From: Panaeolus papilionaceus | Lineage: Eukaryota; Basidiomycota; Agaricomycetes; Agaricales | DNA length: 64,000 nt | Direction of reading: 5' to 3' | Assembly: GCA_015501605.1 (NCBI GenBank) | Contig: JADNRZ010000019.1 | Span: forward strand, 186,001 to 250,000 | Part shown: positions 5,935 to 48,401 of the stretch, one piece after another | Layout of the letters: every line of letters begins with the position of its first letter | Numbering within the stretch: position 1 is the stretch's first letter | Program-made: the position numbers and the translations under genes | Notes under the pieces: generated by a model | Database searches by the model: none | What the model saw: only the letters and a program-made list of their open reading frames with translations | What the model was told of the DNA's origin: nothing

Positions 5935-5936
5935 TA

Positions 5937-15465: not shown

Positions 15466-15782
15466 CATCAGCAATTTCCGATTTTGGGTTGTACCCCCAT
15501 ATAGCATTGCCACTTATGGCCATAGCACCCACGATAGCCACAGTAGACATGTGTAGCAAGTTAGCACTACGTAGCACTTTGTACATACCCTCCTTTGCTA
15601 CATACCACTATGGATTGTGATGTCAAATTTATGTAGCTCTACTGAGTGTCTTCTCTTTAAATTAGCACTTCTGGAATTTTTCTTCTCTAGGTTGCCTAAT
15701 ATAATGAATATAAGCCTCACTAGCACTATTGAAGTAGATGTATATTGTGTTGCGATATACTAGCACAATAACATCTGTGTAT
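15466..15782. repeat. Left terminus of giant element: TIR and subterminal GTAGC repeats
   Basis: The TIR CATCAGCAAT occupies 15,466-15,475. The next 300 bp contain repeated TAGCAC/GTAGC motifs (for example around 15,525-15,575 and 15,717-15,765). At the right end of the element the same motif occurs as GCTAC/GTGCTAC. This inverted arrangement is what transposase-binding subterminal repeats usually look like. The stretch also serves as the 3' flank of the Plavaka transposase gene. Confidence 0.65.
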
Positions 15783-17525
15783 CTAAGCTTTGGATAGTGT
15801 AAGTGCATAATACAACTCTTTATCGAAGTATTTATTTAACCAGAATTCTGTACTAAACTGAAGGCTATTTAAATGAGTCAAACTTGAATTCGCCTTCCCT
15901 TCAAATCTAGGTACAATATCCACAAGAGCACGGAGCTGATTTAAAGGGATAATGTCACCCAAAAGGGCTGCAGAATTTCCTGACCTTGTGGCTCTTTTAA
16001 GAAGGTATAGGGAAGTTGAAGCTTCAGGGTAGTTTCCTCTAGTCGTGCAATTAGGATTTTGTGGGTTGGGATTGGGTTGTGGAATGATGTCATATCTCTG
16101 AATATATGCTAGAAACCTGTCAGGGATTTCTCCAACACTTCGAGATTTACTTTTTGGTGGCACAAGTCGAAAAATCATTCTAATATCCCCTATTATATGC
16201 CCTATTCAATGTAAATGGTATTCGGATATGAGCAAATAATAAAGATCAAATGGAAGCCGCACCAGCAAGTCCAGATTGGGGCCATTGTTTGGAACGGTCA
16301 ATGCAAAAAATACCAGCATTCCATCCACCATGCTCAGGTTCTGCTTTTATGGTGACTGGAGGGCATATGGCATGTGGGTAGTGATAGGCAGTGGACTGTA
16401 GGCGAACAGAGGTCCAAACCTGAAGGTTGGAAATAGGTAGAGTGCATCCAGGGAGGGAGGTGCGTTGGCCACCAATGGTTCATATGAAAATATCTGGATG
16501 ATTTCTTTTCAACCAGTTGAGATAGTCTCCAATGGCAGGCCTGAGATCATCAATATCAAACTTTTTTGACAATGTGTCGATATCAAGCCCTGCAAACTGA
16601 CTAGAAGGATCTCTAGAAAGATGAAAAGCTGTTGTTGGAGAGCTTTGGACAGTGCGATGAGGAGTTGCGGCATTAGCCATATAACCTCTCTTCAAAAGCG
16701 TAGCCCTGTAGAAATAGTTGGTAATGCCATATGTTGCAAGCCCAGAGATAGCTTGAGTGCCAGGGAGATGTCGTGTAGAGGTAATTGCCACCATAAGATC
16801 AGATGTTGTTGTTATTTGAATTGAATCCTTGGCTATTGTGTCGAAGGCAGCAGCAGAAGCTTCAAGTTGGCTGATGCCAGACTCAGGATCCCTTTCTGTT
16901 TCATCTTCCAAGTCTGTTGAGCATGGCCCCTGCTGGGTAGGCTCTGCCCCTAGGCCCCTGAAGTCAATCTTTGCTTCTCGGATAGCTGTTGCAAGATCAA
17001 AATGCCAGAGCTTATCCTGACGATCAAGAGATCTATAAACCAATGATAAAAGATTTGATATAATATGACAATGACATGAGTTAATTACCTGCAAATTTGT
17101 GGCTCATATGCTTGGTTGTTGGATGCGCGAGCTGGTTCTTTGATGAATCTGATATGAGTGTGCTCAGGAGTATCTGCAGACCATTGTATTGCAGCACCGC
17201 TATAGCATATATTTGACACTACTGTCTGAAAAAATTCCAGTTTGGGGATTTGCCAGTGTAGGATTGGTTTCTTCTGCCCTCTTCGTGCTTTAGCATCCAT
17301 AATCGCATATTTGTGTCGATGGAATATACTGAGGGATTGTGTGATCATGCTACATGTTTTTGAGGAAACAACTGGTGCCTGGGCTAGATATCGAAAATCC
17401 ATCAGAGATCGAATAGCAATAACAAATTCAGGAGTAACTGCTCCAGCAATCACTGGAACGATGTACCTCTGAAGGTCTCGATGTTCTCGGCCTGTCACCT
17501 GCTTGAGGTTTGATATTCCTTCTTT
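15783..17525 (-). pseudogene. Plavaka-type transposase, C-terminal half (split gene)
   Basis: Exons 17525-17089, 17032-16263 and 16201-15783 are in frame with each other. This half continues the gene begun at 33,168: the first codons AAA-GAA-GGA directly extend the frame that ends at 31,330, after removal of the inner CACTA and one TTT/AAA duplication. It carries the conserved block with KQVTGREHRDLQRY and, further on, QWSADTPEHTHIR. A TGA at 16480-16482 interrupts exon 2, and the same frame continues through a well-formed exon (ending ...WPQSGLAG) to the next intron, so the stop is a nonsense mutation rather than a natural end. The gene ends at 15783. With the stop read through, the full model has 1,118 codons, close to usual Plavaka length. 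Confidence 0.85.
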
Positions 17526-17915
17526 CACTGTAGACCCAATCGAGGTGGAAAAACCGCAGCGGCGGGAATTTGAGAGGGAGAATACGTACCTTATGGTCGT
17601 ACTTTCTAGTCATTCGCATCGTGAGATTGTGGTGGGGCGGAAATATACATAGCTTTTAAACCGTCTCTAAAACCCGCTGTACTTATACGTCGGAACATAA
17701 GGGAATATACGCCTGTAAGACTGAGGGCAGGGGGATTACATACGGAGCACATCGATGTCGTTTCGCGGTGTGTAAAAGACAAGAAATACAATGTTTTTAA
17801 ATAGCAAAAACCATAATATGGTATCAATATATTAAAGGGTAAGGTATAAGCAGTTTGAACATGCATATTAAAGAACATATATATGTAAATAGACCGGTAC
17901 CATATACATTTGCGA

Positions 17916-18720
17916 TTAGTATTGATTTCTGAGATAACGGACGTCGTTCCAAAGTGCTTGAAGATCGGAGTAATGTAACTTTTCGGGGAGGGTGGGTGCT
18001 CGCTGTGCGTCTGTAGCAACGAGTAGTGTGGTAGGAATGAGAAATGTGGTGCCCAAGGCCACTCTGGTCGCAATCGTTTCCGGGAGGTTGTTCACAATGC
18101 CCATCGTATCATCAAAAAAACCACCGCTACGTATACAATACGTGTTCACGTCTTGAGCCTTCGTATCCAGGTCCAATGGTAGATAATGGGAGCAGACGAG
18201 CACTTCACAGGCAGCGTCCACTAAGCCAATAATGATCATTGGGTGCCACCGATTGTTGCTGTCTGGACGTTGTGTCCAATTCCCGGTCTATCGTGACACT
18301 TAGAAGTATAACAATCTGTTTATTTATTACAACTGACCTTTGCCCGATACCAACAATCGTTGGATTTTCCCCATGCGATACTCCCTATCGACCATTTCGA
18401 GACCTCCTTTCCTCCTTCGCTGTCTTGCCCCTGTTCCTCGTAGAAGCATGCGGGTAATCGACTTATTTTACCCACTGATATCTTGTTCCCATTCATGCCG
18501 GGGTTTCTTCGTATGGAACGATTCCATCGACTTGGAGCTCGAGCGTAAGGGTCATAGCGATGGTATGCATTTCGAGTCGTTCCCCTGACGCGTGGCGTAT
18601 GTTTGATATCTAGATATGTTGCATCAATTTAGACGCCCGGAGATGTCTTTACACTTACCATGCGTTGCAGCCAACCTGGGGATAGTTTCCATCCGCGTTG
18701 ATGAAGAAGAAAAGCTTTGA
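17916..18720 (-). CDS. Hypothetical cargo protein near the left end of the inner CACTA
   Basis: A minus-strand frame stays open across two plausible splice junctions. It starts near 18,720 (block FFFINADGNYPQVGC), jumps an intron of about 98 bp with a GTAAGT donor, runs through 18,580-18,340, crosses a second intron (18,337-18,293) and finishes with a 120-codon exon to a stop at 17,916. That exon includes SNNRWHPMIIIGLVD and GGFFDDTMGIVNNL. The last exon is the best supported; the 5' end was not found, and another frame is also open over the middle exon. I do not recognise a family. Its position suggests cargo. Confidence 0.4.
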
Positions 18721-19553
18721 AAGTCGTAGATGAAATTCGAATAAAAGAAATGAAAGTGGAACAAACACAAACGATAAAAGTTAAAATGACGGAGCGCGCT
18801 TGACGCTCGGGAAAGGACAATGTAATGGTGTGTCTAAAACTTCGATACATGATTTTTGATGTAAACATCGTCGACCCGAATCACGCGTTCTATCGTGCCT
18901 AGCGAGCACTGAAGTCAGGAATACTTGGGGGAGGTGCTGCATCGCACTTTTCGGTATCGTTTGGTCCCAGGCACATCGTCATTTTCCATGAGTATTATGA
19001 TTTTGGGCGTTCCTTTTTGATTTGGTTGACTGTATAGAGGACGACGGGCGACGATCACGACAGTGTCAACGAGGATACTCAATGAAAAAGCGACGCTGAC
19101 TTACTTGAATAGCCAAAGCGCACGCAAGAAATACAGCAGCCACCCTTCCCATTGTTCCATAAGCGAGGCCGCAATCGTTGATTGTAATAGTTAGATTCTG
19201 TCTCATTGAAGTGTTAGTATTCGGTTGAAAGAATCCTAAGGTTCATTTCTAATCTGTAGCTGTTTTGCGCGGGTTCTGGAATGCGATCTGATAGTGTTAG
19301 CGCTGTTGGTCGCTTTGGGACAATGATTATTGATTTTAAAGTGCAGTCGTATTGAGAGAGAGATAAGATCGGGAGATTTAAAAGCAGAGAGTTGGGGTTT
19401 TCTTGACCTGTTGGGAGAGTCATAGTGAGTTGCGATTGACGGTGGTTGAATGGCCATGAAAACAAATTCAAATAATGGTTCATGCACTCTGGTGCATCTG
19501 CTTCAGACCAGATATAGATCAAGAAGGCAAAGGTAACTATAAACAATATGTGA
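18721..19553. other. Region with possible small minus-strand exons
   Basis: On the minus strand, near 19,207-19,104, a short frame beginning MRQNLTITINDCGLAYGTMG runs to a GTAAGT donor. It has an Ala/Val-rich hydrophobic run and a short downstream exon ending near 19,010. A 110-codon open frame at 19,546-19,214 overlaps it in another phase. None can be joined convincingly to the gene at 17,916 or to the transposase, so I make no gene call. Confidence 0.3.
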
Positions 19554-22500
19554 TCATTGGTTCAAGATTTCGGAAGACGGATGAACAACGGGAGTACGAT
19601 CTACATATGCCCATCTATTGCCCCGCCTCACCCTGCCCACGACACATTTAATTGTCGCCAAGTCTATTACTTCAAGACCATCGTCGGAATCGTGCCAATA
19701 AATGCTGTTTTCCTCCTTGATTCTGAACTCATTAACAAGTGCGACAGGCACAAGGAATCGTTCCTCTACCCCAACTTCCGGACAAATTGGAACCTCAAGT
19801 AGAATGATCTTGAGAAGCTGCCCAAAGAAGGATTCCCTGACCATTACCTCTGGCCGTGATGGGAAACGCTCGTTTCGATCCCTCTCACATTCGTACTGCG
19901 AAAGCAAATTTGAAGGTCAGAATGCTCAGTGACCAGTGGGATTAACGAAACACGCACTCGGATATAGGTGTTGTCGCGCGAGTCTTCGGACCTCTTGCTG
20001 ATTGCAGAGGCACGGATAACATCTCCGCCACCTGTAATAACAAGACGCCCAAATTGAAGAATAGGATCTGTCAAGGGAAAAGCACGCTTGACTGCTAGTA
20101 ATGGAACGCGAAGGCGCGTTGCGAGATGGACCTGAATTTTGTGTCGCAGACTACAACCTTGATCAAATGGGTTATCCAGCGTGTGTGGCCCCATGGGTGG
20201 GGTAAGCTTGTATTCTTCGTCTGATAAAAATTAATGTGTTTGAATTTGGAAATATGATGAACTTCCACTTACAGCCTTCTATAATCACCCCATTCTCAGA
20301 TTTGGGAGGGTCCAGATTCAGCTCGTCTGCCGCCTGAAACCTTAAACGAATGTGATCAAGCTGGGACGTTGCGGTCACGAAATTCGAGATAGAGGAGTAG
20401 GGATGCCGTCGACTTTTGATAGCTCGTAGCAGAGTATTACAATGGCGCTCCATTGGATACGCCCACCAGGTCCAAGCGGGACCATTTGCGCGGATGCAAT
20501 CGGCAATGTGAAGTAGCGCATGGATAGTGAGGGGGCAGCATGCAAGGCGTTGTGCAGAAAAGCCGTAATATAACCTGGTCATGTTGGTAAATGGATACAG
20601 AAGTTCAGTAAACGACACGGAGGTTAATAGATCTGGGCACATACCTCTCGTAATCTTCTACCCACTGGCGAAAGCCCATCTCGATATCTTTGATCATTTC
20701 CTGTGTGATTTCCAAGGCCAGACACAGGTTGATGAGGTAGACCAACTCCATAAAATGGGTGTAGTAGTCGTTGTTGACAAACCGATCAATCAAAACAATG
20801 GGGGCGATGAACAACGTGAAATTTGAGTACATTTCGGCCGTAAGCTTGACACTCTTCTTGGCGACATTCGGAACGACCGCTCCAAAGGCAGCTGGGATGG
20901 TTTTCGCACATGCTGCTACATCGGCGCCGACCTCTTTCCAAATGTCTGGTGGGATGTAGTAGCCTTGCCCCACGTGCGAAACGGACTCCTTCTTGAATGT
21001 GCCAGTCCAAAGCTGCATTAGATTCTTCACCGTGTTCTCCCATACCAGGTGCATGAAATCGTAAGGAAAAGATAAAGGAAAAGAAACAGACATTAGAAAG
21101 CAAAGAAGAGGAATACCTTTGATACCATAGAGCTTAGAAAGCTCGTCCTCGGCTGTTGTAGTGAGTGCCATTTGGACCTCCTGAGACTGTTGCATGAACT
21201 CTTCATGAGTACGATGCGGCAGGTTAGCAGCATCATATTCTGTGGGGCCATGTTGGGAAACAGAGGTCAGCAAATTCTGACGTGAGAGAGGAACGTAGAG
21301 CGTGTTAGCGCCCACAGAGGCGGCAATGCCATGAATATTGCACATGCGGCACGGTCTAAATCCATTGTGGCCCTTCATGCGCATCACAAGGGACATGGCT
21401 GGGATATCGCCAAAAATAACGATGAGAAAGGCACGGAGGACAAAAAGAACCAGCGCAACGCCATCAAAAGCCTCGACTCCCACTTCAAGCTTGATAAGTT
21501 CTTCGAATAAGGGCCAGCAAAAAGAGTCCCAGTCAACAGGCTTCTTCGGACCAGGGACGGTACCAACATTGATGCAGTATTGCTTTTGGAATCGCTTTGA
21601 GGGTGGAAGATTGTAGTTGAATAGAATGATGGGCCATGCAGTTTTGTCGGCACGGTCGAACGGTGCAAAACCATCCGTTGAAAGTCCAAGGGCAACGTCA
21701 CGCTCGTCAGAAAAAAAGTGGGTTGGGGGGTTTGAATCAGGGATGACAGTTCCAACAAGCGTTCGGTAGATTTCGCCATCATAGATGTCCTTGGTGATCC
21801 CTGGAATGTGCTGATTAGTCTCTTGAGAGCGATGACGCATCTCAGCCCCAAGAGTAGGGTTTCCAACCATTGCCTTCAACCACGGTATCAGGGGAAGATA
21901 GTCGAAGAACTTGCGAGGATTATCGCCTTTGAAACGAGGCTCGGAGCAAATTGGGCAAGTAGTGAGATCCTTGAAAGGGCCGGTAAAGCAAACACAGCTA
22001 TTAACGCAGCAGCTGTAGCGAACAGGCTGAAATCCAGATAGAGAGAGAGCATGTTTCTTGGCCATTTTCCAAGGGACCTGACCGCTACTGGGAAACACCT
22101 TGAATAGTTGGTTGTAGGTCCTTAGGGATAAGTGATTCTCGACTTTGAGCGTGAAAATGCGTATCAAATTGAGGTCGTACGAATCTGATAGCATGAAAGT
22201 TAGCACAATTCAATTGGCAGTCACGTTCAGCTCACCTAGTTGACGTGCAGAATGAGCCTCTCGTTGAAACTGCTGGCGGACTAACATTTCTGCATGCGCA
22301 TATCTTGCGTCCTCGCTGTCGATTACGTTCATCCCACCCATGTCGTCAGAATGAATCCCTTGCATTCGTTCCCCATCCCCACTCTCATTTGCCTCTTCTT
22401 CGAGTTCTTCATCGCGATCCTCCTGCTCCTCCCGCAACTCCTGCTCCTCCTCATCTTCCTCTTCCCCATTGTCGCTGCAATCTTCAGTCGCTCCGTAATC

Positions 22501-23046
22501 GCCCATATCTTGACCATGGCTCCCATTGTTGTCGTTGCCTTCTTCCCTTCCTTCGAGCCGTTCGTGCTCTTCTTCGATCTGTCGTTCAGCGAGCAATTCG
22601 CTTGGCCTTAAATTACCGCTCCATCTAGAGCTGGAAAAAGAATGAAGACGGCTGCTTGGGGGTTCAGAGAATCTGGTGCTCGTGCTTTCCGTTGCTTGAA
22701 AGGTATGTGGCTGGTGGGAATAGTTCTGTGGAGGTACAGGGTCGTTGATCTCCATAGAATCCTCATTTCCGCCTGGAAGAGGATTGGGGCTACCTGTCCT
22801 TCCTACACTCATGATGGGATTAGGTGTCGTGGAACTGGGTGGGGCAGGAGGATGGCGCGCTTGATGAATCGGTACGTAGGAGAACGCTTGCAACTTTGCG
22901 ATTTCAGCGAGAAGTCTTGGGCGTTCAGATGCTTTGGCATCTCCCCTGAGATGTCGCCTCGTGGTTGGACCGGAAACCTTTTCATTGCAACCACAAATAC
23001 AGCGTCGTAAGGTGCGATCAGACAGACCATCAGGATCTGACTCCAT
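19554..23046 (-). CDS. Tnp2-type CACTA transposase, complete, 1,085 residues
   Basis: Five exons, 23046-22236, 22184-20645, 20574-20273, 20220-19958 and 19895-19554, sum to 1,086 codons with all phases consistent and no internal stop. The N-terminus has a CICGCNEKVSG cysteine cluster, then a Pro/Ser-rich and a strongly acidic linker. Exon 2 has the Tnp2 core: a zinc-like CPICSEPRF segment, LGLSTDGFAPFDRADKTAW, NYNLPPSKRF, VPGPKKPVDWDSF and a DIPA...KGHNGFRPCRMC block. Exon 3 has the conserved YPMERHCNTLL stretch. Exon 5 ends in a domain typical of the fungal family (EVIDLATIKCVVGRV). Established role: DDE-type cut-and-paste transposase of CACTA elements. It is divergent from the gene at 24,588, sharing a 1.5-kb intergenic region. 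Confidence 0.93.
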
Positions 23047-24587
23047 GTGATGGGGGGGATTGGGGTACTCGAGCGATGGGGTGTTGGGGTTTTGGTAAGG
23101 CCGCCTTTATAGTGGTGTGGATCTATGGAAGAACCTGGTATATTATCCCAAGGGCAATACACAAGGGCTTCAAATCGCTAAGCATTGAACTTGGATTTGA
23201 ATATTGGACATGACTTACAGTTATCTATTGAGACGCGGATTGAGCTCGAGATAACGCTGCATGCACCATGATATTGCGCAGTTGTACGAAGCCAAGTTGG
23301 CCCAATCTCGATAAGAAAGTATACCTTGATATTGTTAGGATTGATAACCACGTTTAATTCATATGGCGATGACTTACCATTGCGCATTTTTGTGAGTATT
23401 AATCGAGTTATCACCGCTGGGGTCGGATTTAACGCACAAAGCATGTCTGCACGATATGTCGAGCGAGAGATGAAGTCTTGTTCGGGTTGGACTCTGTATT
23501 GGTTTCCTCATGGAACGGCGAATGAGAAATTGAGTTGGAGTTTACATTCGGGGAGCAAGTGTGCATAGGTGGTGGAGATTATGAGTCGGCGCAAGTAATA
23601 GGTGGAAATAAAGAGGACAAAAAGAGCGACTCGAGTCTGACTCTTTGAAAGAATACACGACCGACGCGAGTCTAAGTCGTTGGGAAGAAATTAGGCCGAC
23701 GGGAGTCTGAGCCTGGAGGGAAGGTATTTCTGTAAAACGACCGACTAGAGTCTGTGTCGTTGAGAGGGGATGGGAGACGAGGGGGAGCTGTGTGAGCTGA
23801 AAGGGGATCATGATGGTGGTTGAGAGCTAAAGAGATATAAACGACCATCGGACTTCAAAGACTTAATCTGAATTGGGAAATACATCCACGTGACACGTAT
23901 TAGTAAAGCCAACACGAGTACACAACAACGACGGCACATCTTTGTCTTCACCATTACCACCACTTCTTCAGCAGTATCGTTCTCCCTCGCAATTCCTCCC
24001 TTTCCATCCTCTCTCACCAGCAAGACGCAATCAACCCCCATCAGCCCCCCAACACAACAATCGATCTGGTGAGCCGACATGCGGACAACCTCGACCTTCC
24101 CTCTCTCCCCTTGGGTCAGACTCTCGTCGCCCATTTTTCTCCCTGTTTCTGGGTCAGACTCTCGTCGCCCGGTTTACTGAGGTCAGACTCTGTCGCCTCT
24201 TTTATCCATACCCACATTTGTCTCCCCCCCCCTCCCCCCCCCAATTCGACTTTATGTTCTCAGGTGGTCAACGGCCATCTAGCACAAGAGAATGCGTTGG
24301 CAGTCTGGTCTTCATTCATTATTAGGCGGTTAATGAGGGGTCTGTCTCACCTATCCTATCACTGAGTCAGACTCGTGTCGCTCAGCAAGGATAGACAACA
24401 GACTCTTCCACCTCCTTTTGGTGGTTGAACTGGGCTGCCCTCGTTCAATCTTAGTGTAACTTGGGGAGCAAAGCGCTCATTTTCTTTTCCCTTGTTCAAT
24501 GTACAGAATTTTGGTGGGTCAATTTGATTCTCTGAACAACAAGGTCTTTAACGTCATAAATATAGTTTTAAGAAGGAAACAGTTAGG
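23047..24587. promoter_or_regulatory. 1.5-kb divergent intergenic region with inverted motif clusters
   Basis: Lies between the transposase start (minus) and the cargo gene at 24,588 (plus). A motif close to CAGACTC-n-CGTCG occurs four times on the minus strand at about 23,627-23,760 and four times on the plus strand at about 24,114-24,385, so the two clusters face away from a central stretch near 23,800-24,100. Spacing is irregular (about 35-180 bp). The pattern suggests a repeated protein-binding site controlling both flanking genes, or internal transposase sites. The centre also contains a C-run near 24,228-24,240. No other gene is seen here. Confidence 0.55.
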
Positions 24588-26833
24588 ATGTTATACAGTA
24601 TCGACAATATAATTGCATCTCGCGATCCTGAAGGTAGGTTCTTGGAGTATTATGTGTAGATCTCATCTAATCCATTCCTGGCAGCTCCTCTGGGCGCCCT
24701 CGATGGACAAGTCGCAGCTCTAATGGAACACGCGGGCGTGAAGTATGTCATCACCACTCCGAATCGAGACTACGTACCAGTACCTCCCGTTGGCGTGCGT
24801 CAGCTTCGTCTTCGTTCCAATCTCCGCTACGGTCTGGAGGACCATACCCAGTGGCCTCAGTTTCATGTGATGGACTATCCTCACCTATTTGCCATCCTCT
24901 CAAAGCCTCACGACATCAACAATGTCCTTAGTATTCTGTGGTGGACCCCTACTCAAAGCGACTTTGAATCAGATGCTACCAGCGCGTTTTCCGGGATGGG
25001 GCACCTGCCTCGGAAGAGGGTGGAACAGTTTCAAAGTTTGAAGGCGATGCTAGAAGATTCAGTCGCCGATTTACTCTCCAGTGAGAATCTCTCTCAGAAA
25101 ACCACCCAAGTCTTAACCTCGTTCAAATTTCAAATGTACAATGCTGTTGAGCGCCTCGCAGCGTTGGCAATGCCTTTCGACGAGGTTGTGTTCAACGTCA
25201 CCGAATTCCAGCGCGTCTACCTCTCCTTGGAAGCCATGTTGCGCTACCGGCGTGTCTACCAGCCTCGTCTCAACAACCCCGATCATCTACCTCCCCCATG
25301 TCCTGACAACAACATTATTGGCGCCTTTACTATGAACGGGAGTGTGGCGCAGCACTTGTATCGTGTAGGGGTCCCTGTTTGGTTCGTCCAGGAGTGGGAT
25401 GGCAGACCATTGCGACGCAATGTTCTGCAAATTGTAGACGTTGTCATGCCATGTCCTCCTTTCAAGTTGGCTGATCATTCCCCCCCATTCCCGACTATTT
25501 TCAGTGGTCTGATGACAGACGAGCAGCGCTATACCTCAATCTGTACATACTCTCTAAAGCGGCAGTTGAGTCCTGATCCATTCATGCGAGGCAACTCTGG
25601 CGCCGCATCTGGTATGTCAGGTATCCCATTCAAGGACCATCTTACTGATATTTCCTTGCAGTGCTAGCGTCTACATCAACTTCCTCAGTATGGGTAGCGC
25701 CCTCTAACCCGGCTCCTCGTAAGCAGTGCAAGTTTCTATCTCTTAACATGAGTTTAGTTTTATTTTAGATATCGCCATTTCCAATATGGCAACTCTTCAA
25801 GGGCCCAGTCATCCGCCGAAGGCAAAGAAAAGGAAACAGGACCCTGATCGTGCGTTGCATCATCAATCTTTATTGGGGCGTTAAACTAATAATGACCACA
25901 GAGAAAGTAGTATTTACGGGTCGCAACAAGTTCGAACCTCTAGAACATCCATTTGCGCCATATTCGATCCCTGCATGGAGGGATGCTCTCGTAGCAGTCA
26001 ATTATTCGCCCGCAAAAATCGTCGATAAGGCTTCTGCAGATCACAATTGCAACCAATATGTCTTCCCCGACCCCGGTCTCATCCTGAATTCAAAGCATAC
26101 AGATGTTTACATCCTAAACTGGCTTCGTTTGGACCGTGTCTGGCACCACATTGTCGCTGAGAATGGCACTCTTAGCCCTCAAGATTGGCGGTATTTACTC
26201 TTCCTCGATCTCAGTAAACCACCTCCTGATGGGAATGCTACTGTCCAACAACGATGTCGAGAACTATATGAAAAGTTACAGACGTGCGTCAACCGGTTTT
26301 CATCAAGCGTGAAGCTTGTCGACCAATTTTCAAATGCTCCAAGATGGAACAGCCAGCCCGTCACCGCCCCAGTCCCAGAGAGAACTGTCCGCGAAATAAT
26401 GTGGACTCTCTACAAGTACAATTTCACGTTTGAATTGATTTCGCTGGACCGACGTGCGTGCCTCGAGTTGGGTCCCAATCCAACAGACGAGAAGTTGGAT
26501 GAGCGGGAAAAGTTGATCAGGGCCTGTTTTGCCGCTGCTCGTTTCAAGTTGCCAGAAATCGATCCGAAGAACATTGGACTTGCCAGCGACGAGCTCGAGG
26601 ACAGGCTACCATACATCATAGCCCTCGGCAAAGTCATCAAATCTTGGACCCTTGACCCAGATCCTGTATTGTTGCTCTGCGACCGTCGGCGGCCAGAGTT
26701 GCACCTCGACCAATCTCGTCGCCACGGATTGGAGAGGGTTGTCACACAACTGTATTGCCAAACTTTTTGGAATTATTTTGGGAGGGCAGCTCAGATCCCA
26801 CACCGTCTCCATCGGTCGAAGAATGGACTTTGA
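24588..26833 (+). CDS. Conserved Agaricomycete hypothetical protein, 680 residues, CACTA cargo
   Basis: Exons 24588-24633, 24685-25611, 25662-25718, 25769-25849 and 25902-26833 sum to exactly 681 codons with intact splice sites. The N-terminal half contains the block RDYVPVPPVGVRQLRLRSNL and then RYGLEDHTQWP, a sequence type I recall from unannotated proteins common near transposons in mushroom genomes (memory, not a search). The short exon 4 has a basic PKAKKRKQ stretch, a likely nuclear localisation signal, joining two globular halves. The C-terminal half is rich in Trp, Leu and Arg with no motif I can name. No signal peptide or membrane segment is seen. It probably acts in the nucleus with the transposase or in element control, but this is inference only. 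Confidence 0.8.
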
Positions 26834-26936
26834 GTGGATGGAATGAGGACATGTGGAGTTAGGTTTTCTTGGACACCGATAACTATTTATTTAGTTGAGG
26901 CAAGCAGCTATTTACAGATCTAAAAAAAATATTTTA

Positions 26937-37879: not shown

Positions 37880-39120
37880 ATCTTGACTGTGCGCATCTTT
37901 CTGCTGTATATTTTACTTTTCATTCATTCTAACATCCAACTAGAAATCGTAACTGCCCAACTAGGAACACCACCTCGCACTTTACGATCGTCAAGTCAGT
38001 CCAAGCAGAACCTGGGCATGAAGCAGACACGTCTCAGCAACAGGAGGAAGAAGAGTGTCAGGTTCGGGAAATGTCCATGAGCCTCTCAGACAACGAAGAT
38101 GAAGAGGAGGAGGAGAGGGAGGTTTGTGAGATGTCTATCGAAGTCTCTGAAGATGAGAACGAGCAAGAAGACGAGCAACCTCTCGCCCTTTCTGCTCGTA
38201 TACCCTCCTTACCCCAAGAGTCATCTCATCCACCTGCACCTGCTCCTGGGGCAGAGGTCCAAGCTCAGTTTCAAATCCCAACACAACAAGAGCCTGCAAC
38301 TGAACACTCACCTGAACATCTTGACGGTCAGCCACCTCAACCTCGTCAAGAGACCCCTCACTTCCTCCTTGACGAGGACAGTCCCATGCCCCTTCATGAA
38401 TCTCATGCTCGCTTTGATGTTACTCCGGAGGTCGGAGACGAAAGCAAGGATACAGATGCTGATCCAGGTCTCGTCAAAATTATCAGTTCGGATCCCAGAG
38501 CTGCTGCGCATGCTGCTGCTATTCTCAAACAGGTACGTCTTCTGTGTTCACCACCCACTTTGATACCAGAATAACTGTTTCAATAATAGCACGACTATGA
38601 ATGTTACACTAAGCTTATGAAGCGCAAGCATTCACAAGGCTTCGGCCCAATCCATCCATTCCACCCAGGACGAATCTTTTGTGTACACCAAGGACGACGA
38701 CGGGACCCTCCATCTCGTGTCCTCCTCATCCTTAAAACCCTCAAAGTCCCCCATGGTCAACAACAAGAGACTCGAGTGGGGCGATTTCATGATCACTTAC
38801 GGGCGCATGTTGGATGCCATGGGCGAGGCTGGGTGGCCTGACCAATGAACAGAAATGTTCGGCAGGTTCTGGGGGGGTCTGCAGGTGCACAAATGGGCTC
38901 GTGTCCATGACAGCTCTGGAGTGGACCAGAGAGCTCTCCTCATCTATCAAGGGGAACAGCGGCGCGTGTGGCACCTTATGGCAACTCGGGGTGATGCCCT
39001 TCCTGATTTATCGGTGCTCAGCGAGCCACTACTCAACATCGTGCGAGCCAATGCAATGAAGATACATATGCTTTGTTTTTCAGCGCCAGGGGGGGATAGA
39101 TCCCTTGTAAGACAAACGGT
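37880..39120 (+). pseudogene. Decayed gene: acidic linker plus conserved globular exon with TGA and frameshift
   Basis: An acidic exon (about 38,071-38,532, beginning MSMSLSDNEDEEEEE) ends at a GTACGT donor. The following exon starts near 38,590. After about 38,625 the plausible frame is offset by one or two bases and reads ...RLEWGDFMITYGRMLDAMGE, meets a TGA at 38,846-38,848, then continues in the same frame through DQRALLIYQGEQRRVWHL. The latter block resembles an unnamed protein type I associate with transposon-rich Agaricomycete loci (memory only). One frameshift plus one nonsense codon indicate a pseudogene. No catalytic motif is visible. Confidence 0.45.
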
Positions 39121-40347
39121 ATGTGATTTCATCTCTCCTTCGCGAGCTCCTGTTGACCAAAAATCTCTTCTTTCCTTCTATCTTATGACTACGTTGCTGG
39201 GATATCGCATACCGCTTGGTACTTGTTGCTGGATGCCTGATGCTTGTTTGCTGGATGCTTGAAATCACGCTGCTTGGTTCCAGGGGCAACAGAACATCCC
39301 TCGGCATCTCCAATCAGGTTGTTTTTCCTGTCGGAGTGAGCGGTCATTGTCACCGTCCCGCTCCTCCCTTGTGCTCATGCTCAATCCCACTTGTGTTCAC
39401 CTTTTCGCTCCCCCGGAAAATCTCACCAGGGTTTTTCACTGGGCGCAGGCGCAAAAGTCCTATCCGCCTGCGCAGTCCGCTTGGGACGACACAAACACGA
39501 TGTCAAGCACTGCAGGGCAACAGAGACCTTCGACTCGAAGTTCCCTTAGAGAAAGCTTACTCGCCCGAACTCAAGCTCTGCACAAGAAGCAAAGATCACA
39601 TCTGCAACAACACCTGGTGTTTCACCTTCTCAACGCACTTCACCCAGACCCTAACACCTTGCCATGATGAAGGTTCCAGATTCCAATCCTCTCGGAAGGC
39701 AAGGATCTGCTGATTTATGGGTTGGGGGAGAGGGATGCAGAAGCAATGACGACAGTGACAGATGTGTGCATTATGTTTCTCCTTCATAATTGGGTTTCGA
39801 ACTAATCAGAACCTATACAGGGTTCACGCCCACTCACCAGTCCATCCACTTCCTCTTCATTCGCCTATATCTCCAATATTTCTACATTTGACAAAGCCAA
39901 CCCACCATGGATTTGTTATGGGGAGTGTGAGCGGCGCGTTTGTTGCGGATGATGTGAGCATCTGAGGGGTTAAAATTCAGAACCATACATCTGGTGCTGC
40001 ACTCAGAGAAAGTCAGGAGTTCACGAGGTCAGTGGATTACTTATTCCTTGTGTTTGATAGGCGTTTTCATTCTATGTTCATAGGTATGATATACCCTTTC
40101 ATAGTTTATTCAGACTTGTGAAAAGGGATGTTTCATAAGGTTTGGTGGATGGCGGAAGGGTTTGGTTCTTGCACCAGCGATGGTGTGTATTTGCCCTTCA
40201 TCTATTCTCAGCATACTTGACTGACTGACCTGCGTACCCTTTCATTTCATTCAGGATGTCGATACTATCCACGCCAGCATTCTAGAGGTGGTAATGATGT
40301 GCGTACCCCTCACCTGCCTCCAATTCGCTTCGGCTCCCAATATGCGT
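39121..40347. other. No recognisable gene
   Basis: Short overlapping open frames on both strands and scattered donor/acceptor-like sites. Segments near 40,258-40,300 (frame DVDTIHASILEVV) and 40,398-40,429 could be upstream exons of the TET/JBP gene; only the latter splices in phase to the next exon. Confidence 0.35.
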
Positions 40348-40381
40348 GGGAAAGTTCAGACATCAACTTCTGAACTTTCCC
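40348..40381. repeat. Perfect 13-bp inverted repeat with 8-base loop
   Basis: GGGAAAGTTCAGA is followed after CATCAACT by its exact reverse complement TCTGAACTTTCCC. It lies just upstream of the first supported exon of the TET/JBP gene. It could be an RNA hairpin in the 5' leader, a dyad binding site or chance; the perfect 13/13 pairing makes chance less likely. Confidence 0.7.
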
Positions 40382-40522
40382 TCTGTGTGTTTCGCTCTTG
40401 AAGATTTATCCCATATTGCTGCCATCCTGGTAAGTCCCAATTCACAAACACCTTTTACAATACTTACTCGACAATAAACTGATTATCATTTCCAGGTTAT
40501 TGCTTGTTGCAAGTTACAACTC

Positions 40523-43500
40523 ATGGACTCGTTGTCACTCACTTGGGATGAAGCGCAGGCGCTTCACACTTTCCTTATCACCCATTCGGGGCCCGTGGAC
40601 CAGTCAAGTTCATACAATACCCTTGGAAGTGTGCAGGTCAAATTAGCAGCCTTGTTGGGCATGACAGAGGAGCAGCAGCCCGAGCTGGCGATGGTGAGTC
40701 TCACATATTCATCTCATTAGCTCCCTGTCTGATCACACAAAAGCTCAATGATGCCCCTTCCACCCTATCTACGCCAGTCTCTGCACCAACCCCTGAGTCT
40801 AGCAGCGCAGCTACCAAACCAGCCCGCAAGGGTTGGTCCTCTGGTTCCAAGAAGTCGCAAACCAAAACCAAGGTCATCAGTACAGAAGCACCCAACCCTC
40901 GTCGTTCGCGTGTGAAAAATTCAGTTGATCGTAGGGGTGGTATGGCACTGGAGTCCCGGCGTTTAAATGATGGGGAATACCTAGATTCCGATGAGGCCAT
41001 GCCTCATGAACCTGCTGCAAGTCATGTTCTCGATCATGTACAGACCTCCTCCCCAATTCTCGAATCTCAAGTACTCTTGTGTCTCCCATTACAGTTCTTC
41101 CAAGGCATTGCTACTCTCTGCAGGGACATTCTTCGCAAACCTGCACATGAGGCGTCTATAGTGTTGGATACTATCAACCTCATATTCCATGGACTATCCG
41201 GTTCTGGAGATCACAGCAACACTCAACGTGTTATGAGTGTGAATTCACCTGCTAATTTGGTTCGCCGCTGTTATATGGCGAAACAAGGAAGTAATCTTTG
41301 TGTCTTCAACTATATGATCAGCACCATGTGCCTGTCTATCTATGTGCAGAGGTATGTCTCTCTAATTTGTCATATTCTTGGTATCTTAATGCTCCTTAGG
41401 CGACAGCAGATGACTCAGGACTCTGAGGAGGCCATCTTGAAACAAGCGGCCATCCAAACACCAACTGGTGTGCTGAGTTCTAGAACTATGAGAAGGTATT
41501 TTGGCGATGGCCAAAGATGCATTATCATGGCTGGAGCTGGTGAGTCGTATATTCCAATTGCTTCATGTATAACTCACCCTTTTTTAGGAACTATGCTTTT
41601 ACTTGCTCTTATCGCATGTCATGAGCAAAGTTCAGGAATATCATTCTTCAAGCTTACACACGATGCTTTGATGAGGATATCCCACCTCATTAGGGCACCT
41701 ATTGGTACGACCATTTCCTCCCTGTCACACAAATTAATATTTAACATCAGCATAACATTAGAAGATGAAAAAGGAATGCAAGTCATCGACTACATAATTC
41801 CAGCCATCGCTCTTCTTCGCAAGCAACATCGGTTGAAGTTTGGTACATATTTTGAAGAGGGAATGCTTATACCTAGTGGCGTTAGAGGAGAACTCGATAT
41901 ATCATCGGATTTATCTGATTCTGATAGATTTTTTAACTCATTCTTGCCCAAGTATGTATCTACCTTTGCGATAAACATTGATATTTGGGGCATTAACTTT
42001 TTTCAATCCAGTACCATGATTCCCCCTAGGTGTCATCGGGTCTGGGCTCCTTGTCTTATACCTGTGGATAATGGAGATGCATTTCCAATCCACCTTCTGC
42101 AGTTGTCTATATTTCAGTCACTCCCTTCCACTACCAATCAGCCATATACACTTATAACAGCCAATCCAGATAGGTTTCCTTCGCCTATGTCTCCTCTTAC
42201 AGCATTGGAGGATGAAGAATTCCCTATGGACTGGGAAAATTCCCAGTATCCTCCAGTAGAGCTAGTGGTCATCAATACGCCATTGGACCTCAGTCATCCT
42301 TATAATCGGTCAAAAAAATACCCTGTTACTTCTTCTCTTGAAAAGTCCCGACAATACACCAATATTCACTGAAGGTTTGCTGACAGCGCCCACCTTGCAT
42401 CATCTATTGAGGATGCAGAAGAGCAGGTGAGTTTATTTTTTATATGGAAGCTATTGACATCTAATGCACTGGATCATTTTCAAGCTCAACAGTTTTCTCT
42501 CTGCGGGTTATCGACATTCGCCTTCAGATTACGTTCAAATCACACCAGAAATACTCACAGGGTACTTTCTCAGCTCCTCTGACATGCACATGCAGCTAAC
42601 ATTCACAATTTAGGCGTCGACTTCGTATAAATGGCAAAGATGGAAGTTTTCTTGCTGCATTACTTCCAGACTTGCCTGAAGATCTGCGCAAAAATCTTTT
42701 GAATGCAATAAAGACTACCTTCTTTGATCAAGAGGTTCGCCATACATCTTCTTGTGAAAAGATAGAGAATTTCTCTAGTCTTCACTTTGTTTGGTATAAC
42801 CGATACTCGCTCCAGGTAAGTCCTTAGGACTTTAGCAGGTCATATTTTAGCTGATGCTCTGACCAGGGTGACAACGCAGAACCAGGTGAACACCCTGTTG
42901 AGTATGAGAGACGCCAACAGAAGAATAAGAAGTGTGGTACACCACAGACCATGCCTCGAATATCAACAGAGACTCAGCACAATCTGGAAGAGTATACGAC
43001 ACTTTGTGATGTTCTTGATCCTGTATTCGAATGGCTATATGGTGCTGTTAGTCCTTTTCATCCCCTGCCTTTTTTTTTTCCCTCGAGAGATATAGACTGA
43101 TTTTTCTAACATAGATCAAACATGTTATTCCAGGTGAAATCCAGCTTATTGCTAGGCTAGCTGAAGATTTGCCTGGAGGAGGACAATCTCCTGCATTGCC
43201 TTTTGGTGGTTTTGTCATTAACTTCAATGTATGCACAGAAGTTCACCGGGATGAGAAGGATGCAGGGATTTGCGTTGTTCTTGCTTTGACAGAGGATTGT
43301 ACAGGAGGGGACTTATGTCTAATGGAGGCTGGGTTGCGCATATCTTTGCGATGTGGTGATGCTATTGTGTTCGTTTCAAATGGTCTTTCCCACTTTAATA
43401 TCCATTATGTGGGAGAGAGAGTCAGCATCGTCTTTCATACTGATGGAGCTTTAGCTATATGGAACTCCAGACGCAATGGCTGGTTGCCCTCAGGGTTTAT

Positions 43501-43528
43501 GATTAAAGGGGTGTCCTCTCCAGAGTAG
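40523..43528 (+). CDS. TET/JBP-like Fe(II)/2-oxoglutarate dioxygenase gene (in-frame TGA in the middle)
   Basis: Exons 40523-40693, 40744-41351, 41400-41539, 41588-41951, 42012-42426, 42485-42561, 42614-42815, 42867-43046 and 43115-43528 total 857 codons in phase. The last exon holds the double-stranded beta-helix: FGGFVINFNVCTEVHRDEKD gives the HxD iron ligands (His at about 43,244), SHFNIHYVGERVS gives a distal His and the Arg expected to bind 2-oxoglutarate. The spacing matches basidiomycete TET/JBP proteins, which oxidise 5-methylcytosine or thymine (family knowledge). The 5' two thirds is conserved-looking but unnamed (RCIIMAGAG block). A TGA at 42370-42372 (codon 548) splits the frame; this may be a nonsense mutation, or two adjacent genes. 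An upstream in-phase exon ending at 40,429 is likely, so the start is provisional. Located inside the giant element. Confidence 0.8.
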
Positions 43529-43775
43529 CTTGTAGTACATATCTTCGAGAGATATTTCTAATCATGTGACTTATCTTGAATACTTCCCACTGGCATTGCT
43601 CTTGAGGTTGTAATATCCAATGATTATGAATAGTTGATCATTATACTTTCACACACATCATCTTTCTCATCCACCACCATTACCGCACTCTCTGTTGCTC
43701 TGGTGAGTGATCTACCTTATATTCTACAGTGCAATACTAATCAAAGCCACAGAGCATTTGTCGTTTGCCAAGACG

Positions 43776-44128
43776 ATGAGCTCAACAGCAAATAATAACC
43801 CTCAGCAAACCATGGTGCTATGCCCAGCGAAATCAATCTTTGAGGACACATTGGATGACATAGGTTCAACACTAGTACATATCTATTAGATTTGGGACTC
43901 AGAACCCTTAATAAATATCTTATAATCTCTTCAATCCAAATATCCAAGGCAGAGCCCTTTTTAATCGTTTCACAAGGCATTGCAGATGACCTAATTGCAA
44001 AGGCTACCAAACTGCATGAGCATCATTTCCAATTAAAAGAGCAATCTCTTCGAAGACTTGAGCAAGCTACAAAAGATCTTGAACACGCAGAAGAACAGCT
44101 TTTTCTTCTTGATCAAAGAATAGGCTGA
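43776..44128 (+). CDS. Small coiled-coil protein, 92 residues
   Basis: Two exons, 43776-43874 and 43949-44128, join in phase 0 across a 74-bp GT-AG intron (GTACAT donor, CCAAG acceptor) to give 93 codons. The N-terminal 30 residues are polar; the rest has heptad-like spacing of Leu/Ile with alternating Glu, Lys and Gln (for example QSLRRLEQATKDLEHAEEQL), consistent with one long coiled coil. Lies between the TET/JBP and DUF6532 genes, co-oriented, with about 250 and 500 bp spacers. No known family; possibly an oligomerisation partner encoded by the element (inference). Confidence 0.55.
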
Positions 44129-44634
44129 CTATCCTATGCCATTCATGTCTCAGGATATGTGGCACCACTGGCTTTACATCATCACCATCCTAACTCACAG
44201 TTAATGGTTGAAAAAGGTAGCTACATGTATACAATGATGGTGCACTCTTCTGTATAAAGCTGATACCATCATATTTATATTCTCTAGATGTTGCGACTGC
44301 CTTCAACGATAAGGGCCATTCAGTATCTGTAATTCTGGACTGACTCTATATCCTGTAGTTTCTTGAAGCTGTTTATTACTTCTCTAGGCTTTGGCAGCCT
44401 ACATCTTTTGCACCGAACTGTCTATTATATGGTAAAATTTGCTTGAGTAGAATGAGGTTACTCCTGGGAGTGGTCGAACCTGAAACAAACAACCATAAAC
44501 CCTCTGAACCTGAAAGCCAACTTCAACATTTGCTATTTTTGTCTTTACCCTACTGTCAGAGCCATCTCTCAAATTTACGATTTCATCCATTCTCCTATTA
44601 TTTTTGTCTTCTAACCATAACCTCCAAACACATT
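44129..44634. other. Intergenic, promoter region of the DUF6532 gene
   Basis: AT-rich spacer of about 500 bp. No reading frame, repeat or hairpin of note was recognised. Confidence 0.5.
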
Positions 44635-47600
44635 ATGCCTGCTGCTGCTAGGGGCGCTAAAGGTAAGTCCTTTTTCTACTACATTCAGGTTTGTTTGTTA
44701 TAGTCTAAAAACAATGGGGTTTAGGTTCAGCGTCTGAGAATAAAGGTTTGCTCACCTCATTTGCTAGCTTATGAGACTTACCATATCCTTTTTAGAGAAT
44801 AGACCATCTGAGTCACTTGCTTTAGGCAGGGAAAGACGGAACATTAAAAGTACCATTGAGAATAGGGACAAATTGACTCAAACTTTAGTAGGCCAACCAA
44901 AACCACCAAGGGGATCCACCAAGTCAACTACTGTAAAGGCTGTAAAGTCTATGGCTGTAGCAAAAACGATGCCCTCAGATCTACCAGATAATCCCATGGC
45001 CCCAAGAGCCATTCTTCATCCACCCCAGAAACGGGTAAAGCCCAACCAAACCATAGCTGATGTGTGTACTCTGTCTTCAAAATTGGGTATTACTGACATT
45101 TATTTTCAGCCTGCATCTAGCAAAGATGCGCCGCCATTGTCTATTGACCCTTTCCAGCACTGGCATGCAAGCTACAACCTTCGTCAGTTGAAACCCCCAG
45201 CCGCACTCATGCTAGATGCAGGCTTGGAGCTCAGCACTCCTCTTCAAAAGGCCTCCACCAGTCAGATAATAACACAGCCATCTGAAGTACTCTCCTTATT
45301 GCTCTCTTATTTCTTTTGATTAACTTGAACACTGGCTCTTTAGGCGACTGTTGGGGAACATGACTGGAATAGTATTAAGGCTCCTAAAGGTGTTAACGCT
45401 GAGACCACTTCTGGAGTTCCACCTTCCGCCAATGAAGGAGAAGACATTGATATGAATGATGATCATGGTAAGCCAATTCAGAATTCCACAATATTCTGAC
45501 TTCTGATCATGTTACCATAGGGGCAGCCCAGGATTTGTCCTCCAGACTTGTTAGAGTCACATATAGTGGTCTCAGAAAAAGATCTAGGATCATTTATGAG
45601 TCTGAAGATGAATACGCATATGATAACAATAACATTGAAGAGGACACCAAAGGGCACTCTGTTAATGGCAAAGACGAACATGAGGAAGAAGCGCAGAGCA
45701 GCAATCATAGTGACATGGAGGATGATCCAATAGAAGGCTATAACTCTTTGAGAGAACCTCGAGCGCTAACAGAGGACATAACTTGTATCTAATATTTATT
45801 TTTTATGATGGTGGCTTACTAATGCAAGCATGTAGTATCCCCCAAGCTCTATTTACATCGTGAACCTAGTTATTATCCAGGCATGGAAGAAGACAACAAT
45901 TTGGAACAAGAATATGCTCCTGGCGAAGGTAAATCACTGTCACTATCTCCCCTTGTGTAACATGTTCTGTCTTCCTTGCGTTGGGCTAAATTGTAAAATT
46001 TTCAGGTTATATATACTCATTCTTTATCTTGGCTTTTTTTCCAGGGCTTAATCTGTATATTTTTAGAACCCAATCAACAAGATATCAAGGACAGGGACCA
46101 AAGGGAAACTCCCCTCTATGAAGATCAGCAAAGAGTGAGTCATCAATTCATCCAGGATAATTTTTTAGATCTGTGTTCCCTTATTATTAATTTAACTTGC
46201 TCAGGCCCCTGTTGTGCAGGACGTTCTGGCTAACCACCACACTAAAAATCCTGCTCGAAAATTACCCCAGGAGGATCGTCTACAATGTGCTGCTGAACAC
46301 CAAGGACGACTGAGCAATGTGGCAAACAACAACCTTGAAGAGGATTCCCAGCATGAGAGCAATGAAGAACCTACTGACTCAGAAGATGAAGCTCCAGTCG
46401 CTAAACGAGCTGTCAGGATTTCTCCAGATGAACCCAACCCAACAATGCTCCGGTTTTATTCCTCCTCTGGTACCTGGAAAATGGTTTTGGTCGAGTCTAA
46501 GTATTTCATTCAACTGTATATTGTGTCAGAGTCTGCCTTTCCTCACAGAGAGAAAAACCTTAGCATTGCCTCCAGCATTCTTGCTGAGCGTATTCAATAT
46601 CACATCAAGGAAAACAACATTGAATTCGATCCTGGTATGTTTAAATTTTCGGCCTTCCTTTGTTCGTCGCTCATTCGCTTTGGTTTTGTCTCAAGAATTC
46701 TCCCATACACGAAGCATGGATGTATTGGTAAGCTAGGATTTTATTAATTGGTATGCAGTCTTTGCACTAAGAGGTATATACAGATCTTCAAGGAGTGTGC
46801 AACGTTCCGAGGGAAGATGAAGGAGATTTGTAGGAATCTGGTTGCAAAGGAGAAGTTTTATGGGAAGCACTTTGAACTTCCTGATGAAGGCGAAGAAGGG
46901 TATATTGATGGTGCTCATAGTCAAGCTGAGGCACATTCTGTCATCGCCAAACAGGTTTGTGAACTTCAGGAGGGGGATAGTGGGGCCAGATGGCATTGCA
47001 GACCTGTGGATCAGAATGTTCATATGCTTCAAGTATAAATACTCCTTGCAATCTCATATACTAACTTATCTATAGGGAAAGAAGTCTAACTTCGCTCATC
47101 CTTGTATCAGGGCACTTGTTTTAGAGTTCTTTTACAAGAAGAAGGATTCTCTGGCTCGCCAATTTCCAGATCATTTTGATGAAGCGGTTCCTATCCAGGC
47201 ATTGGCTCTTGCTGCCATTTGCGTATGTATATATTTCAGTTACTGGACGCTTTTAGCTGACTATCTGTTATAGATATACAACTGTATTGATGAATACTCT
47301 CAGGGAATGTTCATTGCCATCCCCTTTGAAGGTACTGTTAGATTTATTTGTTAAACTTACTTGCTGTGCTTCAACGTGCCTTATTATTTCTTTTATTTAC
47401 CAAGCAAACACACTGCAAGTTCAACCCTCGCTTATGTTTCTTTCCTTTTCTTTCTTCGTGTTTCTATTGTGTCCATGCACGACCACATCATTGCGTCGCT
47501 TAGTTCTCTGAGTCTCACTTATACTGGCCGTTTTCATTTCTGATCACCTCAGTTGTTTATCCCCAAACCAACTGAGTCTGTTTCTTATAGGTACCCTTTA

Positions 47601-47712
47601 TGCAGACACCTACGACAATATCATCACTGTCTTAGGTGTTGTCAAAGAAGATAAATATCATGGAAAGAAGTTGGAGAACATGCTAAAGTCCTGGGCCGAA
47701 GCAGGAATGTAG
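44635..47712 (+). CDS. DUF6532 domain protein, about 13 exons
   Basis: Exons run 44635-44662, 44725-44745, 44796-45286, 45344-45467, 45521-45784, 45836-45928, 46067-46134, 46205-46634, 46696-46726, 46784-47032, 47076-47222, 47274-47331 and 47591-47712, ending at TAG 47710-47712. The N-terminal half is disordered, with Lys/Ser/Pro-rich then acidic stretches. From about 46,490 it matches the DUF6532 fold as I know it: FPHREKNLSIASSIL, a FKECATFRGKMKEICRNL helix, FAHPCIRALVLEFFYKKKDS, then LALAAICIYNCIDEY. DUF6532 proteins are abundant in Agaricomycetes and of unknown function. All joins keep frame and no stop is seen, so the gene looks intact. It is the rightmost gene of the giant element. Confidence 0.82.
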
Positions 47713-48401
47713 GAACATGCCTTCTTATATTTGCGCTCATCTCTGATATCTATTTTTTTTTTCTCTTAAAGGGCTCTGATCAACCCTCCCAAAATAAAGA
47801 AGGGAAAGCACATCGGGTGTATATTGGATTAGTAGTTTCTTATTTTCCAGTTTTTTCTGTCCTATTGGGCATTCTGATTTTATTCGCTTTTGTTACATAT
47901 AATACCCTTTTTCCCTAGTAGAATACTATTTCTCAATAATAATAATTGCATACTGCTATAATTTACATGCTAGGCTGTTCATGGAACTACTCACTACCAC
48001 AAATTTGGTAGCAATGCTGCTGTGATCTGTGCTGCTTTGTAGCTCAACATCCAAATACTGTAAAGACCTGAAGGCAGTTCATAGAACACTGTAGCAGAAA
48101 CACACTGTTACGCAGCACTACATATACAAAGGTTATCTAGTTGGTTGTCTCTTGATAAATGTTTATAGCGGCACAGAGCCAATACTGACACCTTGGTACT
48201 GCTACTGGGGGTTCTATGAATGGAGCAGAGTCTCCTGAGAGTGCTACAGAGTGCTACAGAGCATTACTGATGCCATCAATTGAGCTACAGACAGTTACCA
48301 CGTCATTTAGGCTGACTACGTAAGGGGTACCCTCTGCTATGGCGCTACAGTGCTACAGAGCGCTACGTAACGCTCCATAGCAGACCCAGACATTGCTGAT
48401 G
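47713..48401. repeat. Right terminus of giant element with subterminal GCTAC repeats and TIR
   Basis: Non-coding 690 bp rich in GTGCTACAGAG, GCTAC and GTAGC motifs (dense at about 48,090-48,380), ending in ATTGCTGATG at 48,392-48,401, the inverted copy of the left end. Orientation of the GCTAC motif is opposite to the GTAGC motif at the left terminus. Typical of transposase-binding subterminal arrays. Confidence 0.7.

Follow-up and report, generated by a model that had tools for sequence, protein, structure and literature searches.

A PlavakaB-type cut-and-paste transposon of 33 kb, itself interrupted by a nested second transposon, occupies positions 15466–48401 of a 64,000-nucleotide stretch of the Panaeolus papilionaceus genome (the window; positions 186001–250000 of contig C11, with the 71 contigs of the 50.85-Mb assembly labeled C1–C71). 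The element very probably belongs to a transposase-encoding lineage that carries a TET/JBP-like dioxygenase gene, one or more DUF6532 genes, and a mosaic of host-gene fragments; the capture of these fragments and the activity of the encoded enzyme are what we infer from the sequence.

The element is delimited by 10-bp terminal inverted repeats (TIRs), CATCAGCAAT at 15466–15475 (left repeat, forward orientation) and ATTGCTGATG at 48392–48401 (right repeat, reverse orientation), which are bordered by a TA dinucleotide on either side (15464–15465 and 48402–48403). These exact ends and the TA target-site duplication (TSD) had been proposed in an initial annotation of the window and were recovered here; TACATCAGCAAT is found only twice in the window compared to a mean of 0.01 occurrences in shuffled sequences. 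The perfect repeat is limited to 10 bp, inward of which the two ends diverge. Subterminal repeats, also part of that annotation, are present as TGTAGC (counted on both strands) seven times in the right 400 bp and three times in the left 400 bp of the element, once in the left 1-kb flank, and not at all in the right flank or in the 3-kb TET region.

The insertion lies within a Tnp2-like gene, for which an uninterrupted paralog on C4 (C4:1555301–1556100) serves as the empty site. Bases 1–137 of this locus align to positions 15329–15465 with 99.3% identity and bases 136–800 align to positions 48402–49066 with 98.5% identity, such that both sides share exactly one TA. The frame of the C4 copy is open over the junction and reads ...QINALYAIV... 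with one TA, in agreement with the earlier claim that the gene had been split in frame (...QINAL-YAIV...), and the match of both halves to one contiguous copy answers the concern that they derive from different Tnp2 genes. The C4 copy is itself damaged, with an in-frame stop approximately 95 bp past the insertion site. A more distant copy on C22 is also uninterrupted at the site (90.0% and 81.6% identity on the two sides), with a 172-aa frame open across it. Both copies are paralogs on other contigs and not an empty allele from another isolate. With only ~1.4% divergence between the C4 copy and the outer gene (11 differences in 802 aligned bases), the insertion probably postdates the split of these two copies, although gene conversion could mimic this pattern.

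The element was assigned to a family by its termini and its transposase. PlavakaB elements are described, in the available text of Kojima (2025; PMC12730594), as having CATCA..TGATG termini and a TSD of 2–3 bp. The window element has CATCA..TGATG termini, a 2-bp TSD, and a transposase of the Plavaka type, as initially annotated, which matches the Pfam family PF18759 at 31249–32091 with an E-value of 7.7e-65. Three other large elements in the genome share these termini and encode a related Plavaka transposase, namely a sister on C56 (17,245 bp, TSD AA), an element on C17 (15.1 kb, TSD TA), and an element on C67 (13.4 kb, TSD CT). The left terminus CATCAGCAAT is common to these three and to 22 small relatives, 19 of which are 1.5–1.8 kb long and resemble the window element at their ends and three of which are 128 bp long. 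Matching 2-bp flanks were identified at all four large elements and at 18 of the 22 small elements with both ends recovered, where 1/16 would be expected (p = 1e-18 for the 22 small elements); four were mismatched. This count omits one-ended loci, includes only once an element that had been retrieved twice, and contains a few elements that entered via a TA search. The initial annotation suggested searching for further copies with these ends and with TA duplications; copies exist, but their duplications include TC, TT, AA, CA, TG, GG, CG, AC, and CT, with TA in one small element, and TA-specific targeting was therefore rejected. A 128-bp miniature inverted-repeat transposable element on C2, C7, and C56 has CATCAGCAAT ends and end sequences unlike those of the window family, and is presumably fed by another Plavaka lineage.

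Large size is not peculiar to the window copy. The view that such elements are normally a few kilobases long could not be maintained in this genome, where relatives with the same termini measure 17.2, 15.1, and 13.4 kb. The C17 and C67 copies (15.1 and 13.4 kb) are 99.6–99.8% identical over three aligned blocks to the termini, and because they reside at different sites with different TSDs, units of 13–15 kb have probably moved recently. C17 holds ~1.8 kb absent from C67, which in turn holds ~0.1 kb absent from C17; no transposon ends were seen in the ~1.8-kb segment and its edges share ATCC, making a deletion in C67 likely. The same cargo as in 7.1 kb of the C17 element was found at approximately nine further loci, the ends of which were not read, and six of these are at most ~4 kb from a PF18759 match.

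The second transposon is a CACTA element of 13,801 bp (17526–31326) with CACTG ends and a TTT TSD (17523–17525 and 31327–31329), which interrupts the Plavaka transposase gene and contains a Transposase_21 domain at 20608–22209 (reverse strand). The sister on C56 runs through the nest site uninterrupted, and its transposase matches in one frame on either side. Subtracting the nest leaves an element of 19,132 bp, in line with the ~19 kb originally estimated. Collinear copies of the nest interior are present on C21, C32, C25, C71, and other contigs, and a search with 8 kb of it resulted mainly in long multicopy matches. As the nest splits the transposase gene, the window copy, which retains both ends and no whole transposase, is at present non-autonomous.

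The transposase gene is read toward the left end of the element, and the TET/JBP-like gene followed by the DUF6532 gene(s) toward the right end. The 3' part of the transposase gene (16249–17525, reverse strand) encodes the C-terminal region with a DUF6830 domain (PF20722, E = 2e-14) and shares 86–91% amino acid identity with the C56 copy, and the 5' part with the PF18759 domain extends over 31327–33168 on the same strand. The conserved gene(s) at the right end (43910–47339, forward strand) include a DUF6532 domain (PF20149, E = 2e-12) at approximately 47082–47333, and a distant counterpart with DUF6532 is encoded in the C17 element. Ratios of nonsynonymous to synonymous divergence (dN/dS) between the window and C56 copies were low, with 0.13–0.21 for three segments of the transposase (0.13 for 31327–32133), 0.11–0.25 for three segments of the TET gene, and 0.13–0.19 for five segments of the right-end gene(s). 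These values were obtained by simple counting on local alignments, in which stop codons and introns read across were skipped in some places and included in others, depending on how the alignments ran, and carry no significance test.

The dioxygenase gene (BJ165DRAFT_1531881; 40523–43525, forward strand) encodes an 811-aa protein, P0001, with an H-R-D motif in the catalytic exon (43115–43525). The putative iron-binding residues, in this HRD and a distal His, and a downstream Arg are identical in the window and C56 proteins, with the residues assigned by motif and not by structure. The PE-type TET reported from TET-containing (TET+) Plavaka has, in the text available, HxE in place of HxD. The HxE of this type is absent here, as both copies bear HxD. 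At the positions typical of the AG type (Gly331 and Asp337 in CcTET, which are +5 and +11 after the first iron-binding His and are occupied by Gly or Ser and by Asp), the window protein has D and V at ungapped offsets. Given HxD here versus HxE in the PE type, either Plavaka would have acquired TET genes of two types or the TET classification may be wider than described. Homology searches with a 606-aa open reading frame (ORF) and with P0001 returned only P0001, which may reflect the exact-word choice of candidates.

Between the transposase gene (to 33180) and the start of the TET gene (40523) lies the region that we interpret as a mosaic. Matches to five loci cover 3531 of the 7340 bases of 33181–40520 (48%). 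The five putative donors are located on four contigs, with the two on C6 being 787 kb apart, and each occurs once outside the element, at 76–85% identity. All pieces are on the forward strand. The first, at 34113–34440, matches a DUF6534 gene (C6:852034–852354, 80%) and abuts a piece at 34441–35434 that matches C56:1663873–1664859 (78%), a locus with a 532-aa ORF at bases 3–1598 from which the apparently captured part spans bases 273–1259 of 1600. A piece at 36676–37047 has an internal deletion relative to its donor (C70:917343–918223, 76–78%). An aspartyl protease fragment begins at 37530–37999 (C67:421165–421792, 78–85%) and resumes at 39702–40285 at the adjoining donor base (C67:421166–420308, 78–80%). 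Within it are two pieces of a second C6 locus, at 37999–38632 (C6:65047–65687, 83%) and at 39548–39699 (C6:66314–66544, 76–83%); two weak, low-complexity matches to this locus were dropped. Of the five donors, two could be named from Pfam matches, the DUF6534 gene and the aspartyl protease (PF00026). Judged by the longest donor ORFs, all five are in the sense orientation with the TET gene. The seven joins between pieces consist of five overlaps of 0–4 bp and two gaps of 2 bp. The first piece from the second C6 locus retains a putative 58-bp GT-AG intron, which points to copying from DNA. Introns are also retained in plant Pack-type cases.

The corresponding region of the C56 element was composed differently. 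Of 5430 bases searched, 4692 (86%) are covered by matches to six loci different from those above, on C14, C2, C16, C5, C3, and C23, at 75–92% identity; two weak overlapping matches to C6 (E ~1e-6) were dropped from this count, and ~200 bases were outside the search. A single 18-bp match (E = 0.006) is shared between the two mosaics, and a Pfam search of the C56 mosaic in six frames resulted in one sub-threshold match only. Two further stretches, 8 kb from the nested CACTA and 7.1 kb from the C17 element, were examined in comparison, and neither resembles a mosaic of single donors; both are transposon interiors and not an ordinary single-copy host stretch. Window positions 1–7340, a control of the same length, proved uninformative as they lie in a tandem array of C11, and the CACTA interior was used instead. 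Values of dN/dS for the longer captured pieces against their donors (0.2–0.5) were set aside, since indels disrupt the reading frames and the values combine the histories of element and donor.

The direction of transfer was assessed from CpG dinucleotides. A donor CpG corresponds to an element TpG or CpA in 124 cases and the reverse is true in 22, which indicates transfer from host to element. Bases in donor CpGs differ at 156 of 448 positions, compared to 456 of 3148 for other bases. The observed/expected (o/e) CpG ratio is 0.80–1.06 in the donors (whole fetched loci) and 0.48–0.74 in six element pieces. The Plavaka parts have ratios of 0.38–0.58, compared to 0.85 for the nest and 0.88 and 1.01 for two outer stretches. 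This decay relative to the donors suggests past cytosine methylation of the element. The high ratio of the nest fits a late arrival, although the CACTA lineage may simply be less affected.

A mechanism that would produce this arrangement can be outlined. The transposase would bind the terminal and subterminal repeats and excise the element, and insertion would proceed with a 2-bp stagger. Breaks inside the element would be repaired by template switching to other loci, which would give rise to the mosaic; gap filling as considered for the Pack-TIRs of animals (PMC8277862) is the closest fit to such an origin. The TET-like dioxygenase may help the element against cytosine methylation, of which the CpG decay would be the trace, and a counter-methylation role has been proposed for Plavaka TET-like genes (Kojima 2025, PMC12730594, text available in part). 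With its transposase gene split by the CACTA element, the window copy would depend for movement on transposase provided in trans, for example by a relative like that on C56. A bolder extension, which we offer tentatively and regard as somewhat more doubtful than probable, is that the region between the divergent transposase and TET-like genes acts as a "capture bay" that is repeatedly patched and holds a different chimera in each copy, that the TET gene was acquired independently of the PE type, and that the whole would constitute a methylation-resistant exon-shuffling element.

Several observations weigh against a TET-bearing element with a captured mosaic. More than half of the window mosaic (52%) remains unmatched, comprising 35435–36675, 37048–37529, 38633–39547, and the first 0.9 kb, and the six loci assigned to the C56 element are putative donors identified by their matches. 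Seven joins, four of which are within one donor, are too few to prove template switching. The PF12851 (Tet_JBP) score of P0001 is 28.6 bits, below the cut-off of 34.9 bits; among six genomic loci matching this family with E < 0.001, the C56 copy alone exceeds the cut-off, at 36.5 bits; besides the window and C56 copies, these loci are on C24, C61, C10, and C23. AlphaFold models of the TET-like protein were useless (mean predicted local distance difference test scores, pLDDT, of 31.7 and 32.8), and searches of the PDB yielded no TET chain and only chance-level matches (E-values of 0.69 and 1.3; a myosin-binding protein). The CpG effect is not confined to the element, as its immediate flanks, which are part of another transposon, have o/e ratios of 0.56 and 0.72, and it is weaker in the relatives: 0.64 for the C56 element (0.76 for its mosaic) with flanks of 0.82–0.87, 0.82 for the C67 element with flanks of 1.02–1.09, and 0.81 for the C17 element with flanks of 0.91 and 0.73. 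Finally, synonymous divergence (dS) between the window and C56 elements is 0.33–0.34 for the transposase and 0.68–1.20 for the TET and right-end genes; because the former is so far below the latter, the element itself is probably recombinant, with halves of different histories.

Among the alternatives, the most serious is an ordinary TET+ PlavakaB element in which old nested insertions have left their remnants in the middle region, without a real capture process. Nested insertions are plainly common in this region, the fragments are broken in frame, and half of the window mosaic matches nothing, all of which this alternative would accommodate. Debris of insertions would be expected to resemble the nested CACTA in matching repeats, whereas the matched loci occur once each and several have long ORFs; the host-to-element polarity and the different set of fragments at the same place in the C56 sister are likewise not what it predicts, and we consider it unlikely. 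Reversing the direction, such that the element is the source and the host loci are transduplicates of element-borne genes, is very improbable. Similarity alone does not give a direction, and a CpG asymmetry could also result from methylation decay confined to the element. The observed asymmetry of 124 to 22 together with the higher CpG o/e of the donors is nevertheless strong, if not absolute, evidence to the contrary, and donor ORFs, such as that of 532 aa, extend beyond the shared part. We give the least credence of all to an assembly artefact in which two Tnp2-like copies were joined around unrelated sequence: the analysis does rest on assembled sequence, but the 2-bp TSD and the TIRs are exact, each flank is ~99% identical to one contiguous C4 copy, and the nest is confirmed independently by the C56 sister. 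Capture of host fragments by a TET-bearing PlavakaB lineage is retained as the best explanation.

The gene that received the element extends from 12733 to 15465 on the forward strand (5' part, including the TA target copy at 15464–15465 and matching the C4 copy at 99% identity) and continues, according to the C4 alignment, at 48402–49066 on the same strand, beginning with the second TA (48402–48403). A Transposase_21 match within 13485–14396 scores 17.4 bits against a cut-off of 28.6 bits (E = 0.0027), and the Tnp2 name is therefore weakly supported. No pair of termini with matching 3-bp flanks was found for the outer CACTA among the candidates listed between 9 and 60 kb. The DNA around the outer transposon (1–10072 and 51279–60319) consists of sequences tandemly repeated over approximately C11:10–280 kb. 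Positions 1–7340 gave 99 matches, many on C11, and pieces of 9018–10072 recur at 59262–60319 with 72–88% identity. Identical 300-bp copies are present 3.5 kb apart at 55166–55465 and 58705–59004, adjoining a 769-aa open frame (56339–58645, reverse strand) without a Pfam match. A cluster of short repeats at 52431–52958, with 31–65-bp units containing TGTGTAAACC, is perhaps the subterminal region of another transposon, and an open frame at 62612–63448 has a weak likeness to Spt5 NGN/KOW domains that is under the Pfam cut-offs.

The initial annotation viewed the element as a cargo-bearing mobile island with several unrelated genes. Extra genes are indeed aboard, but they are conserved element genes (TET/JBP-like and DUF6532) and a mosaic of fragments and not intact accessory genes, and for this reason a Starship-like island is not the best comparison. 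Starships are large fungal elements with extra genes and a tyrosine-recombinase captain at one end; the window element shares the size and the extra genes and differs in having TIRs and a Plavaka transposase. As had been stated, no such captain was detected, in Pfam searches of 30 of the 44 ORFs of at least 150 aa and of further frames, with the minus-strand frames of the mosaic not scanned whole.

The closest relatives are PlavakaB elements, including the TET+ Plavaka of Agaricus bisporus and Gymnopus confluens (Kojima 2025, PMC12730594), which, in the text available, share the termini, the 2-bp TSD, the transposase, the TET/JBP-like gene, and a host in the Agaricales. The host-gene mosaic sets the present element apart from them, and Panaeolus is not among the genera named there for TET+ Plavaka; the terms "gene fragment" and "CpG" are absent from the main text of that report. 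A literature search, outside of which fell most subscription papers and all supplements, found no Plavaka with a host-gene mosaic. A host gene on a fungal cut-and-paste transposon is also known from the transduplication of histone H3 in hAT elements (PMC6710886), a case that, as far as its available text goes, involves one gene, captured from a transcript in Pyrenophora and amplified, compared to several genomic fragments in two elements here.

Host-gene fragments between TIRs, a kind of cargo familiar above all from plants, are likewise characteristic of the Pack-TYPE, Pack-CACTA, and Pack-MULE elements of plants (PMC8903248, PMC13317346) and the Pack-TIRs of animals (PMC8277862), and the short homology at junctions described for the latter in the text available (median 2 bp) resembles the short overlaps here. 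Pack-TYPE elements are defined as non-autonomous in the portions of these papers at hand, whereas the window lineage has its own transposase gene and a TET-like gene, and superfamily and kingdom differ as well. Fragments are thus present between the TIRs, as in Pack-TYPE elements, alongside a transposase gene (split in the window copy) that such elements lack, and the element is a Plavaka in the style of Pack elements, from a lineage that encodes transposase. Capture of gene fragments by cut-and-paste transposons, described in plants (PMC8903248) and animals (PMC8277862) in the text available, is here associated with a mushroom element that has a demethylase-like gene and fragments of five loci, and with a sister that has fragments of six others. 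Should this hold generally, new chimeric genes in fungi could originate from transposons of this kind, and the co-occurrence of CpG decay with a conserved TET-like gene offers a directly testable example of a methylation–transposon arms race. Relative to these known systems, what is new is a PlavakaB element that combines an HxD TET-like gene with host-gene mosaics that differ between two copies.

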